A stretch of 64,000 nt of DNA from Candidatus Bathyarchaeota archaeon. GTDB lineage: Archaea; Thermoproteota; Bathyarchaeia; Bathyarchaeales; Bathycorpusculaceae. A program made the translations under genes and the position numbers. The stretch covers positions 1 to 64,000 of the forward strand of contig JARYLR010000004.1 in assembly GCA_029907545.1 (NCBI GenBank), written 5' to 3'. Shown one piece after another: positions 993-44,869 of this stretch (position 1 is its first letter; every line of letters starts with the position of its first letter). The notes below the pieces were generated by a model that did not search any database, was not told where the DNA came from, and saw only the letters and a program-made list of their open reading frames with translations.

Positions 993-1547
993 CTAGTTGC
1001 TATCTGCTAGTGTTTTTAGTCCATGCGACTTCAAAGGCTCTATAACGTTTGGTCGGCTGAGTGCAAGCAGTAGGACATATCCAATTCCAGCAATTGCGAT
1101 TAGACTACTCATTGATATGCTTATAACCATGGCGACGACTGCTGGGAAAGCACTTAGAGCTTCTGGCGGCGGAAAATCGAAAAATATCGACAGATAACCG
1201 CCGACTATGATGCCTATTGGCAGGGCTCCTGCTACACAAGCCATGAATCTCCTCTTTCGCAAAAGCAATACTATTGTAGCTGCGATCAGATTGGCAATAG
1301 GTCCAAACGCAATGTCTACGACGCCAAGGAAATAGTAAGCGTTAGACAGGAAGCAGCCAAATGTTACACCTGCTATAACAGGCCAGCCTAAAAGAATAGT
1401 TAACGCAATCAAACAGTCAGCGACACGCAATTGGACAGGCCCGTATATCGTTGGGTTTCCAACGGTTAATGATTGAGCAACATTGATCACAACGTATAGA
1501 GCCGCGAAAACAGCAGATAGCGCAATATCTTTACTGCCAAAGTTCAC
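993..1547 (-). CDS. queT: QueT-type ECF transporter substrate-binding subunit (queuosine/archaeosine precursor uptake)
   Basis: Membrane S component of an energy-coupling-factor transporter of the QueT family, whose bacterial members import queuosine precursors such as preQ1. Five to six hydrophobic segments fill the 184 residues. The QueT signature GPVQLRVADCL lies at about 36-46, followed by a GVVDIAFGPIANL stretch at about 75-87. In an archaeon the likely use is salvage of a 7-deazaguanine for archaeosine (inference). The GTG start at 1547 is set by a strong Shine-Dalgarno AGGAGGTG seven bases upstream. No ECF ATPase or T component lies nearby, so a shared module elsewhere would be needed. 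A structured leader precedes it and is listed separately. Confidence 0.8.
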   Translation of the reverse strand: MNFGSKDIALSAVFAALYVVINVAQSLTVGNPTIYGPVQLRVADCLIALTILLGWPVIAGVTFGCFLSNAYYFLGVVDIAFGPIANLIAATIVLLLRKRRFMACVAGALPIGIIVGGYLSIFFDFPPPEALSAFPAVVAMVISISMSSLIAIAGIGYVLLLALSRPNVIEPLKSHGLKTLADSN

Positions 1548-1617
1548 TCTTTCACCTCCTACTCCGGGGTTTGTTTTGGCGGAACGGGTGGAGGCCCACT
1601 CACCCGCCTAACGGTTC
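1548..1617 (-). promoter_or_regulatory. Structured 5' leader of queT; candidate riboswitch
   Basis: Read on the minus strand. GGCGGGUG (1608-1601) can pair with CACCCGUU (1590-1583), an 8 bp stem with two G-U pairs and a 10-base loop holding UGGG (1598-1595). An A-rich linker (about 1578-1570) and a C-run (1569-1566) follow; the C-run can pair with the loop G-run as a 3-4 bp H-type pseudoknot. The Shine-Dalgarno GGAGG is at 1559-1555. A competing fold uses GGCGG/CCGCC (1608-1604 with 1582-1578) around an inner 6 bp stem. The CCUCC at 1594-1590 is complementary to the Shine-Dalgarno. Two exclusive folds plus an anti-SD fit translational control. The ligand is inferred only from the gene downstream. 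Confidence 0.45.
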
Positions 1618-1691
1618 TCTGCAGATGATTTTTTAGCTATTAAACTTTACTAAAATATTGTCTCATCAGTTTCTTCAGCAGGTAGCATAGG

Positions 1692-23188: not shown

Positions 23189-24844
23189 CTATTTCAGCAT
23201 TGGCATCTTGACGCCTTTTTCTCGAGCCACAATTTGCGCTTTCTCGTATCCAGCATCCGCATGCCTCACAATTGCGGTTCCCGGGTCAGTTGTTAACACC
23301 GTCTCAATTCGCTTTTCTGCTTCTTCTGTGCCGTCAGCTACCAGACACATGCCTGCGTGAATGCTGTAGCCGATTCCTACGCCGCCTCCGTGATGCACGC
23401 TGACCCACGTAGCCCCGCCAACCGCATTGATAAGCGCGTTAAGGATTGGCCAATCGGCGATAGCGTCGCTTCCATCTTTCATGTCTTCTGTTTCACGGTT
23501 AGGCGACGCCACGCTTCCTCCATCAAGATGGTCGCGTCCAATCCATACAGGTCCACTAAGCTCTTTTGAGCGAACCATTTGGTTAATGATTTTTCCGAAT
23601 TTTGCGCGTTCTCCATAGCCAAGCCAGCAAACTCTTGCCGGTAGCCCTTGGAACTTCACGTGTTCTTTTGCCTTGCGTATCCACCTGCATAGACCTTCGT
23701 CATAGGCAAATTCTCTAAGAACAACATCATCAAGCTTGTAGATGTCTTCATTGCTGCCGACAAGCGAAGCCCAGCGGAATGGTCCTTTACCCTCACAAAA
23801 CAGCGGTCTAACATAAGCCTGCACAAAACCCGGATAGGCGAAAGCGTCCTTAAAGCCAGCGTCGTAGGCTTGCTGCCGAAGATTGTTGCCGTAGTCAAAT
23901 ACCACGGCGCCTTTCCGCATCATGCCTACCATGGCTTCAACGTGCTTGCACATGCTGTTCATTGCTTGGCACACATACTCCTTTGGATCACGCTCTCTGA
24001 GGGCGTCTGCTTCACTCTTGCTGAAACCTGCTGGATAATAGCCATTCAGTGGGTCATGGGCGCTTGTCTGATCAGTCACCACATCTGGGATGACTCCTCG
24101 TCCTAGCAACTCAGGATACACGTCTGCAGCGTTACCCAACAACCCGACGCTTAGAGAAACCTTCCGCTGCTTCGCATCAAGAACCATTCTAACCGCTTCA
24201 TCCAGTCGGTCAGTCCAATCATCCAAGTACCCATGCTTCAATCTACGTTCGATCGCCCACTCGTTGATCTCAACAACTAAGGCAATGCCGTCATTCATTG
24301 TGACTGCTAAAGGCTGTGCTCCTCCCATCTCGCCTAAGCCGGCTGTTAAAACAAGTCTGCCCTTCAATGAGCCGCCAAAATGCTGTCGAGCAACTGCCGC
24401 CAACGTCTCATAGGTTCCCTGCAGTATGCCCTGTGTTCCGATGAATGCCCAACTGCCAGCAGTCATCTGCCCGTACATTGTTAAGCCTTTCTGTTCCAGT
24501 TCTAGAAAGTAGTCCCAGTTCGCCCATTTTGGCACAATCATGGCGTTAACAATCAACGCTCTAGGCGCCAACTCGTGCGTTTTGAACACAGCTATCGGCT
24601 TACCGCTTTGAACCAACATTGTTTCGTCAGCTTCAAGATTCACCACCGTCTCCACAATCTTGTCAAAGCATTCCCAGTTGCGTGCAGCTTTACCTGTTCC
24701 ACCATAGACTATAAGGTGTTCCGGATCTTTCGCCACTTCCGGATCCAGAACATGGCAAAGCATGCGCAGAATTCCTTCGATCTGCCAGTTTCTGCAATGT
24801 AGCTTAGAACCAGTTAAACACTTGACGGGTCTTTCTATCCTCAT
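23189..24844 (-). CDS. hutU: Urocanate hydratase
   Basis: Second step of histidine degradation: urocanate to imidazolonepropionate using tightly bound NAD+. Diagnostic stretches: [14 protein letters not shown] (about 46-59), [32 protein letters not shown] (dinucleotide site, about 168-179), [16 protein letters not shown] and [16 protein letters not shown] near the C terminus. The ATG at 24844 (551 residues) matches the normal N terminus; the frame extends to an ATG at 24877. Not in one run with hutI: a plus-strand membrane gene lies between. hutH (histidine ammonia-lyase) is not in the window. Confidence 0.97.
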
Positions 24845-24955
24845 TCCACGCCACCAGAACCTCAGAAGCACAACCATGCTAAAATTCTTTGCTTATCCAC
24901 TATTCTTTTAAACAACAGCTCAACCTATTGTAACGTCAAAAAGGGAGAATAAAAC

Positions 24956-25198
24956 ATGAAAGGAGTACTAGTATTTTTAGCAGTGTTTCTTGCCACCTTC
25001 GCTGCTTCAATAGCCTATCCAGCCATGCCTCCGGGAAGACAGATTTATGACGCCCTTAATGTTCCTGAAACCGATTACCCTGTGCTCGGCATTCCTGCAA
25101 CCGTTTTGATAATAGCAGTTTTCAACGCCGTAATCTATGGAATAATTGCATGGTTAGTCTTCACGGTTGCTGAAAAAGCACGGAAACCAAAGCTGTAG
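24956..25198 (+). CDS. Small two-helix membrane protein in the hut region
   Basis: An 80-residue protein with a hydrophobic N-terminal segment (about 3-22, signal peptide or anchor), an extracellular-type loop with PPGRQIYDALNVPETDYPVLG, and a second helix (about 44-66) ending in a basic tail. GGGAGAA lies nine bases upstream of the ATG, so it is probably translated. No family recognised. It sits on the strand opposite to hutU and hutI, three bases from the hutI stop. Confidence 0.65.
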   Translation: MKGVLVFLAVFLATFAASIAYPAMPPGRQIYDALNVPETDYPVLGIPATVLIIAVFNAVIYGIIAWLVFTVAEKARKPKL

Positions 25199-25201
25199 TT
25201 T

Positions 25202-26524
25202 TTACTCAACTCTTCTGAGAACCATTGGTTCGCCACGTTTTTCTTCTTTGTCAACAACTATCCTACCGTTCTTGATAACCTTATCCACTAGGTTAGCTCC
25301 AAACCGGTAGCCCAGGTTCTTGTGATTAGGGACGTCTAGAATGAGTATATCTGCCTTCTTGCCAATTTCCAAGCTGCCTACTTCTGGCGCCCTATTTATC
25401 GCGTGTGCAGCATTAATAGTGGTTGCGGTTATCGCTTCAGCGGGTGTTAACCGCATGAAGTTGCAGGCAAAGCCTATGACTAGTTGCATGTTTTCAATCC
25501 AGCAGCTTGGGTTGAAGTCAGAGCCCAGAGCTATAGGCACGCCGAGGTCAATGATTCTTCTCGCGTCTGCAAACTTGTTGTTCATCAAGCTGAAAGCAGC
25601 AGCAGGAAGGAGGACTGCGATCACATTTTTCTTAGCCATGGCTCGTAGCCCCTCATCGCAGGAAAAGAGGAGATGATCCGCCGAAACCGCTTCTACATCA
25701 GCAGCAAGTTCTGCGCCTCCTAACATGCTTAGCTCGTCTGCATGAACTTTCGGTTTTAAGCCGAAGCTTTTTCCCGCGATAAGTATACGTCTGCTTTGTT
25801 CCAAGTTGAAGACGCCTTTCTCGCAGAAAACGTCGCAAAACTCTGCCAAACCTTTCTCAGCCACTTTCGGGAGCATCTCATCGGTAACAAGGTCAACGTA
25901 ACCCTGTGTGTTCCCTTTAAACTCGGGTGGAACCGCGTGAGCACCCATAAACGTTGGAACAACGTCAACGGAGTGAAGCTGGTTCAGACGTTTCATTACC
26001 TCCAGAATCTTAAGTTCATCTCGCGTTATCAATCCATAGCCGCTTTTTGCTTCCACAGTTGTTGTTCCATGCTCCAGCATAGCATCAAGTCTTTCTAAGC
26101 CAACATCCGCAAGTCTGTCGATGCTGGCTTTCCGGGTTTCGCGAACAGTCTTCAAAATGCCGCCTCCTGCATTGAGAATCTCCAGATAGTATGCGCCTTC
26201 GATACGCATCTGGAATTCGTCTTCTCTTGAGCCCGCAAAGATTAGATGTGTGTGCGCGTCAACGAAGCCTGGAAGAATGGTTTTGCCGTCGGCGCTGACT
26301 ACGTTTTCTGCTCTGATGTTGTGTCTTACTTCAGCGCTCTTACCTACAGCCACTATTTTTCCGTCTTTTACAGCGATGCCGCCATCGCGGATTATGCCTA
26401 GTTCCTGCATCTGCTTGCCTGCACGAGGCTTTTGGCTGCCTCCGTCGAGAGTAATAAGCTCATCTGCATTAACGATTAGCAGATCAGCTTTTTCCTTTGC
26501 CTTAACTCTGGAGGCTTTACTCAA
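25202..26524 (-). CDS. hutI: Imidazolonepropionase
   Basis: Hydrolyses imidazolone-5-propionate to N-formimino-glutamate, third step of histidine catabolism. Amidohydrolase-superfamily metal motif DAHTHLIFAG (about 89-98), then VEAKSGYGL (about 157-165), HADELS (about 261-266), and GSDFNPS (about 345-351) with the last metal Asp. 440 residues is slightly longer than usual because of an N-terminal basic extension. TTG start overlaps the ftcD stop by 8 bp, so the two are translationally coupled. Confidence 0.96.
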   Translation of the reverse strand: MSKASRVKAKEKADLLIVNADELITLDGGSQKPRAGKQMQELGIIRDGGIAVKDGKIVAVGKSAEVRHNIRAENVVSADGKTILPGFVDAHTHLIFAGSREDEFQMRIEGAYYLEILNAGGGILKTVRETRKASIDRLADVGLERLDAMLEHGTTTVEAKSGYGLITRDELKILEVMKRLNQLHSVDVVPTFMGAHAVPPEFKGNTQGYVDLVTDEMLPKVAEKGLAEFCDVFCEKGVFNLEQSRRILIAGKSFGLKPKVHADELSMLGGAELAADVEAVSADHLLFSCDEGLRAMAKKNVIAVLLPAAAFSLMNNKFADARRIIDLGVPIALGSDFNPSCWIENMQLVIGFACNFMRLTPAEAITATTINAAHAINRAPEVGSLEIGKKADILILDVPNHKNLGYRFGANLVDKVIKNGRIVVDKEEKRGEPMVLRRVE

Positions 26525-27443
26525 AGGAATCGCCCTTCTCCAAAGCGTTGCTTATAGCTATTTCTAAGATGCGGTCTTCAGTTAAATTATCTATCTTCAG
26601 GTAGTAGTCAGCTACGTCGATCAGAGCTTTCAGCGGAGCCATGCCGCAGAACTCTGAACCCACAATGGGCACGTTGTAACGTGCGCATTCAATTTTGATA
26701 ACTTCAAAAACTCGGTAAAGAGGAGTTTTCTCAAAATCATGAATGCTCATCCCTATCTGCGTGATGTTTTTCTCTGGGACAACTGCAGCCATAGCCTTCA
26801 CGTTCGTAAACCCTCCTTTACCTGAGTGCAACGCCTTCGCAATCTTTTTTGCAGCTGACAGATCCGCTGTGCCTAGGTTAACGTTAAAACCCACCATGAT
26901 CTTGCGTGCGCCAGCGATTGTGGCCCCGGACTTTGCGATAAACTTGGCCTGACCAAAGTCTGGCTTGCGTTCAGGCTTAGCAATCATCGTCGCTAGCTTT
27001 TCGTATTCACCTTCACGGATCCAGTCCAAATCTCGTCGCGTAGGGTCTGGCTGAGCTGCCCCATAAAGGTAAACTGGCACACCAGTTTTTTCTGCCAGCT
27101 CTTTGCCGAATTTTCGGGCAAGCTGAGCGCAGTCGTCGAGCGTGACTTTTTTTATTGGTACAAAAGGTACAACGTCGACGGCGCCCAAGCGTGGGTGCTG
27201 CCCCTTATGTTTACGCATGTCAATAAGTTCTACTGCCTTTAAGGACATGTTCAAGGCGGCGTTGAGTGCGGATTCTTTGTTGCCTATTATCGAGACTACA
27301 AGTCTGTTGTAGTAGCTGTCGAAGGTGTAGTCAAGTAAATGTGCGTTTTTGATTTTTTTGAGCTGGTTAAGGATTGCTTCAACTGTTTTTGGATCTGAGG
27401 TGCTAAAATTTGGAATGCATTCAACTATTTCCGTCATCTCCAT
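26517..27443 (-). CDS. ftcD: Glutamate formimidoyltransferase (FtcD N-terminal type)
   Basis: Transfers the formimino group of formiminoglutamate to tetrahydrofolate, closing the histidine pathway. Family signatures: VECIPNFSTSDPK at the start, YNRLVVSIIG, HKGQHPRLGAVDVVPFVP (about 80-97) with the catalytic His, and GFNVNLGTAD (about 186-195). The 308-residue protein holds only the transferase; the cyclodeaminase domain found in animals is absent and not encoded nearby. Upstream of and overlapping hutI. A second ATG six bases on is possible; AGGGGC precedes the first. Confidence 0.95.
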   Translation of the reverse strand: MEMTEIVECIPNFSTSDPKTVEAILNQLKKIKNAHLLDYTFDSYYNRLVVSIIGNKESALNAALNMSLKAVELIDMRKHKGQHPRLGAVDVVPFVPIKKVTLDDCAQLARKFGKELAEKTGVPVYLYGAAQPDPTRRDLDWIREGEYEKLATMIAKPERKPDFGQAKFIAKSGATIAGARKIMVGFNVNLGTADLSAAKKIAKALHSGKGGFTNVKAMAAVVPEKNITQIGMSIHDFEKTPLYRVFEVIKIECARYNVPIVGSEFCGMAPLKALIDVADYYLKIDNLTEDRILEIAISNALEKGDSFE

Positions 27444-44771: not shown

Positions 44772-44869
44772 GCTCCGGTAGTATAGTCCGGTCAAGTATA
44801 GTGGCCTCTCGACGCAGCAGGTGCAAAGGGAGAAAGTCACGGACCCGGGTTCAAATCCCGGCCGGAGCA
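44772..44869 (+). tRNA. tRNA-Glu(CTC) with a 23-nt intron
   Basis: Acceptor GCTCCGG (44772-44778) pairs with CCGGAGC (44862-44868); discriminator A at 44869, CCA not encoded. D-arm 44781-44800, anticodon stem GTGGC/GTCAC, loop CTCTCGA with anticodon CTC at 44808-44810. The intron spans 44812-44834 (ACGCAG...GGAGAA), after base 37. CTCT of the loop can pair with GGGAG in the intron, giving a bulge-helix-bulge. T-arm CCGGG-TTCAAAT-CCCGG. Two tRNAs in the window are far apart and independently transcribed. Confidence 0.92.

Follow-up and report, generated by a model that had tools for sequence, protein, structure and literature searches.

To our knowledge, very few riboswitches have been recognised in archaea, and those of which we are aware, for fluoride and TPP, also exist in bacteria; archaeal cases of TPP riboswitches exist. 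The crcB/fluoride and TPP riboswitches also lie in archaeal mRNA leaders, as does the element described here, but their folds, ligands, and genes are unrelated to it. The preQ1-I riboswitch is about 33 nt long, compared with about 59 nt for the archaeal element. Like the element, preQ1-I (RF00522) is an H-type pseudoknot with a P1 of ~5 bp and an A-rich tail immediately after it, and its targets, queCDEF operons and queT, are like those of the archaeal element. In types I and II of this class, UC or AC immediately precedes the 3' strand of P1 (PMC11625349). PreQ1-II (COG4708/queT motif, RF01054) resembles the element in lying upstream of queT, in its translational control (proposed for the element), in size, and in a hairpin loop that pairs with the Shine-Dalgarno sequence in a pseudoknot. 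It is known from Bacillota only, holds the whole Shine-Dalgarno sequence in helix P3, and has a P4 hairpin in its third loop (HLout fold) that is absent from the archaeal element (PMC11625349). PreQ1-III (RF02680) likewise occupies queT leaders with a possible anti-SD/SD pseudoknot; it is ~100 nt long with five helices and comes mostly from Ruminococcaceae and metagenomes (PMC11625349). The open-licence literature describes these three preQ1 classes, and we found no archaeal preQ1 or preQ0 riboswitch in it, which does not prove that none exists.

The window, meaning the whole 64-kb stretch of Candidatus Bathyarchaeota DNA that was analysed, contains a queT gene whose leader reads, on the minus strand and 5' to 3' from position 1616, AACCGUUAGGCGGGUGAGUGGGCCUCCACCCGUUCCGCCAAAACAAACCCCGGAGUAGGAGGUGAAAGAGUG. 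Features of the gene and its leader are as follows.

1638–1644, minus strand: TATA-like box TTTAATA (sequence and consensus position across loci)
1553–1611, minus strand: whole conserved RNA element, ~59 nt (covariance model R1, 76 bits)
1604–1608, minus strand: P1 5' strand, GGCGG (P1 covariation)
1595–1603, minus strand: loop L1, GUGAGUGGG (conserved first four bases)
1588–1594, minus strand: S2 5' strand, CCUCCAC, anti-Shine-Dalgarno (S2 covariation and strand-swap permutation)
1583–1587, minus strand: loop L2, CCGUU (conservation in distinct cores)
1578–1582, minus strand: P1 3' strand, CCGCC (P1 covariation)
1564–1577, minus strand: loop L3, A-rich linker then AAACCCCGG (aligned copies)
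1555–1562, minus strand: S2 3' strand, GU(A)GGAGG, which takes in the Shine-Dalgarno GGAGG at 1559–1555 (S2 covariation and permutation)
993–1547, minus strand: queT, ECF transporter substrate-binding (S) component, 184 aa, GTG start at 1547 (Pfam PF06177, E = 4e-23)

By covariance model R1 the element is single-copy in the host genome (76 bits, E = 8e-18), and by chance the core pattern would be expected nowhere in the window. A search of Rfam 15 with the window leader returned only a chance match at E = 7.8, and RF01054, RF00522, and RF02680 had no match at E ≤ 10 to the window leader or to 14 loci with divergent copies. Folded as a single sequence, the leader is no better than its shuffles (z = 0.03), so the sequence by itself proves nothing and the case is made by conservation. 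Elsewhere in the window, a minus-strand cluster at 23189–27443 resembles histidine breakdown genes by sequence impression (urocanase, imidazolonepropionase, glutamate formiminotransferase), and a tRNA match at 44772–44869 is longer than usual at 98 bases and possibly contains an intron.

Pseudoknot and conserved loops

The element is almost certainly a structured cis-regulatory RNA. Sequence comparison establishes the element itself and the pairing of P1 and S2, two helices that together make up a conserved H-type pseudoknot, an RNA structure well supported by compensatory change. P1 (GGCGG/CCGCC) is paired in 97.6% of cells across 41 distinct sequences, and 16 cells are changed on both sides compared with 3.3 in shuffles, none of 500 shuffles reaching 16. 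At least three families carry C-G instead of G-C at the fifth pair of this stem, and the outermost pair is variously GC, AU, GU, CG, or UA. S2, formed by CCUCC with the Shine-Dalgarno GGAGG and a flanking pair, is paired in 89.8% of cells, with 18 double-changed cells compared with 6.7 in shuffles (0/500); each strand was anchored separately to its own consensus, so this count is not tilted towards pairing. For P1 and S2 jointly, 93.3% of cells are paired and 34 are double-changed compared with 10.2 in shuffles (0/500), counts that overstate the independent events because the sequences are related. The covariation score of the two helices is 0.233, and sliding the partners brings it to no more than 0.072. 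When S2 3' strands were swapped among 92 copies, the total duplex energy of the true pairing was matched in 0 of 20,000 permutations. Partner variants of S2 include UUUCCGAC/GUCGGAAA (L218), GCUCCGU/ACGGAGC (L220), UUCUCCU/GGGAGAA (L228), and CCUCCCCAC/GUG(u)GGGAGG (L217).

The initial annotation had read the leader as an 8-bp hairpin with a G-run in its loop, an A-rich linker, a C-run able to pair with that loop, and a CCUCC complementary to GGAGG. All of these pieces are present on the minus strand: the hairpin GGCGGGUG/CACCCGUU (1608–1601 with 1590–1583, including two G.U pairs), GGG in the hairpin loop, the linker at 1577–1570, the C-run at 1569–1566, and GGAGG at 1559–1555. The covariation test that it proposed for related queT leaders is strongly positive for P1 and S2, and its CCUCC (1594–1590) does pair with GGAGG, in the conserved S2. 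The hairpin was discarded as the conserved structure, the conserved stem being 1608–1604 with 1582–1578; only 36 of 58 cores retain all of its central 6 bp, it breaks at the C-G flip of P1 pair 5, and it had no double changes in the first alignment. Pairing of the C-run with the loop is not kept either, and GGG is missing in several copies (e.g., L213 and L220).

Near-invariant unpaired segments (GUGA, CCGUU, and AAAnCCC, usually extended by GG) accompany the two helices. Every one of the 58 distinct cores opens L1 with GUGA, GUGG, GUAG, or GUAA. L2 reads CCGUU in 55 of them and CCGAU in the other 3, and in L3 an AAA is followed by a single base (a pyrimidine or A), then by CCC, and usually by GG. 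In two copies (L222 and L273), the change of CCGUU to CCGAU in L2 goes with a change of CCC to CAC in L3, a hint from the alignment of a tertiary contact between these loops. Invariant loops are as expected of an aptamer; a simple stem needs none. GUGG in L1 can also form a small hairpin, P2, with CCAC. All of P2 is present in 43 of the 58 distinct cores, the most divergent cores having lost it, and P2 is likely an alternative partner of the same CCUCCAC strand that forms S2. Three divergent copies (L219, L220, and L227), in which AAACCCCAAAA replaces AAACCCCGG, P2 is absent, and S2 is near-perfect, are perhaps a subtype.

Distribution and associated genes

QueT was searched for in 60 related genomes and the leaders were read. 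Directly before most related queT genes is a block of the form GGCGGGTGAGTGG(n)CCTCC(n)ACCCGTTCCGCC, a short A-rich linker, AAACCCCGG, and then GTAGGAGGTG. With covariance model R1, 188 of the 257 genomes searched from the host's class and 80 of the 398 drawn from its phylum proved to carry the element, usually as a single copy. Among the matches listed from a pattern scan of public genomes, the named carriers are Candidatus Bathyarchaeota, Candidatus Methanomethylicota WYZ-LMO10, and Nitrososphaerota MAGs, and in the bacterial matches the remainder of the element is missing; hits of the pattern in bacteria and in viral contigs reach 26.4 bits at most. In 148 genomes from the phylum of Halosimplex there were only three weak hits, none with que genes beside it, and these were rejected as chance. 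The same holds for L221 (23.7 bits, no QueT), one of the 100 copies whose following genes were read. A few QueT-bearing relatives (e.g., G027 and G050) have no detected copy, so the element is not obligatory.

Position, distribution, and gene association are likewise established by comparing copies. The sequence TTWAWA occurs 50 to 15 nt upstream of the element at 39 of 91 distinct loci; a control interval contains it at 7 of 91. Matches to the stricter form TTTAWA are most frequent about 30 nt upstream. The place of this TATA-like box predicts, by consensus and not from a mapped 5' end, a start at about 1612–1618, just 5' of the element, which would make the element the very 5' end of the message. 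A start downstream of 1583, which the initial annotation had held incompatible with its proposal, is thus not what the box ~30 nt upstream predicts.

A QueT-like open reading frame follows the element in 95 of the 100 copies read. In one of these (L071), queC is the first gene and queT lies 663 nt further on. In two Nitrososphaerota loci (L040 and L089) queE follows instead, in one of them then queC (PF06508, 1e-34); the QueE calls are best matches to QueE models that fall below the strict NCBIfam cut-offs. At L222 the element precedes a membrane protein without a Pfam match and then queC, and at L230 it precedes a membrane protein without a Pfam match. The genome of L040 (G580) has three copies (L269, L272, and L273), which precede queE-folE (folE encodes GTP cyclohydrolase I, PF01227, 8e-35), queE-queC, and queT-queC. 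True QueC (E < 1e-40) occurs in 12 relatives, and in 11 of these its gene is found downstream of an element copy and in the same orientation. These arrangements, in which the element also precedes queE, queC, queE-folE, and queT-queC, support the 7-deazaguanine connection of the initial annotation. Both queE and both queC genes of G580 are under element copies. The first genes at L222 (G535) and L230 (G074) encode proteins of ~240 aa, without Pfam or NCBIfam matches, in the usual place of queT; they resemble each other, have a common EQVT.NI motif, and may be an unrecognised family of 7-deazaguanine carriers.

No true QueC is encoded in the host genome, so the organism probably relies on import. 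The genome also has no TGT/ArcTGT hit (PF01702), a domain found in 56 of 61 relatives, which counts against the riboswitch reading; two other relatives without a Pfam TGT hit have fragments at contig ends, and the gene missing from the host is therefore probably an assembly gap. In archaea, preQ0 is the base inserted by ArcTGT (PMC5485725, PMC11298593). Judging from gene content, we lean towards preQ0 as the main ligand: it is the common product of folE, queE, and queC, and it is favoured over preQ1, which is not expected to be made because QueF was found in none of the 61 relatives by a search that was positive in eight control bacteria. Of the original label, a queuosine or archaeosine precursor, the 7-deazaguanine part is supported, and a queuosine precursor proper is less likely than preQ0. 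The same riboswitch might instead respond to preQ1, queuine, the archaeosine base, or guanine. Bacterial QueT proteins are known or predicted to carry preQ1 (PMC5372724, PMC11625349), and salvaging archaea might import other 7-deazaguanines, but the missing QueF and the convergence of the co-regulated folE, queE, and queC on preQ0 make another ligand unlikely.

Proposed switching and alternatives

The element is quite probably a translational riboswitch of a new class for a 7-deazaguanine, judging from its conservation, structure, and genes. In the mechanism we infer, which covers ligand binding, ligand identity, and the direction of switching, the transcript would begin just upstream of the element. 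With ligand scarce, CCUCCAC would pair locally with GUGG (P2), or the loop would stay open; the Shine-Dalgarno sequence would be free, and the importer, or in other genomes the preQ0-making enzymes, would be translated. Abundant ligand would bind a pocket of L1 (GUGA), L2 (CCGUU), and L3 (AAAnCCC) beside P1 and lock the pseudoknot, pairing CCUCCAC with GU(a)GGAGG, so that the Shine-Dalgarno sequence is hidden and translation stops (OFF). By analogy with preQ1-II riboswitches, the ligand would stabilise the pseudoknot and so turn translation off. Nearest-neighbour energies, from a model without tertiary contacts that is unable to score the pseudoknot, favour P1 with P2 (-14.4 kcal/mol) over S2 alone (-6.2), so the OFF state would need help from ligand or tertiary contacts. 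As expected of a switch, the modelled energies fit a default state of ON, with ligand required to turn it OFF.

The pseudoknot could also be the binding site of a translation-repressing protein, such as a preQ0-responsive RNA-binding protein or ArcTGT itself, for which structure, conservation, and gene association would look alike. We know of no protein of this kind. No common regulator gene lies beside the element in the loci read, and known preQ1 riboswitches share its build, a compact pseudoknot with invariant loop bases over the Shine-Dalgarno sequence (PMC11625349), making this reading rather improbable. A leader whose structure determines how much is translated or how stable the RNA is, or responds to temperature, with no specific signal would also place the Shine-Dalgarno sequence within a helix, and the GC-rich stems are stable; it is nevertheless very improbable, given that unpaired GUGA, CCGUU, and AAAnCCC are kept beyond the class level and that the element accompanies genes of the preQ0 pathway instead of thermal or general ones. 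A leader peptide (GUG AGU GGG CCU CCA ...), suggested by GUG and an open short frame in the window copy, was rejected because loop lengths give every possible remainder on division by three, stops are scattered, and no frame is kept across copies, and it is as hard to credit as a DNA operator, since compensatory pair changes and a place downstream of the predicted start favour RNA.

Comparison with known riboswitch classes

The riboswitch reading would make this a widespread archaeal class and mean that translational riboswitches evolved independently in archaea. It would also identify a control point for the supply of archaeosine precursor, and the leader would let archaeal QueT, QueE, and some uncharacterised membrane proteins be annotated. 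Among the features expected of a riboswitch that can be judged from sequence, a conserved structured leader with covariation is present, and the genes attached to it belong to one pathway (queT, queE, queC, and folE). Compared with preQ1-I, the bases directly 5' of the P1 3' strand are UU in 55 and AU in 3 of 58 cores, and not UC or AC. Compared with preQ1-III, the element is short (~59 nt) and has two conserved helices. Its covarying S2 corresponds to the anti-SD/SD helix P3 that closes the preQ1-II pseudoknot. Unlike preQ1-II, it has a 5-nt CCGUU between S2 and P1 and AAAnCCC(GG) in L3, and in place of an HLout fold with P4, L3 is a short A-rich stretch and CCCGG with no conserved hairpin. 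With no model match, no P4, the CCGUU insert, different loops, and a host in another domain of life, the element is by these tests not a member of preQ1-II. The bases before the P1 3' strand set it apart from preQ1-I, and its size and helix number from preQ1-III. On balance, we would regard it as a fourth class of 7-deazaguanine riboswitch and the first mainly for preQ0, confined to Thermoproteota, acting on translation from the 5' end of the mRNA, and governing both salvage (queT) and synthesis of the archaeosine precursor (folE, queE, and queC).
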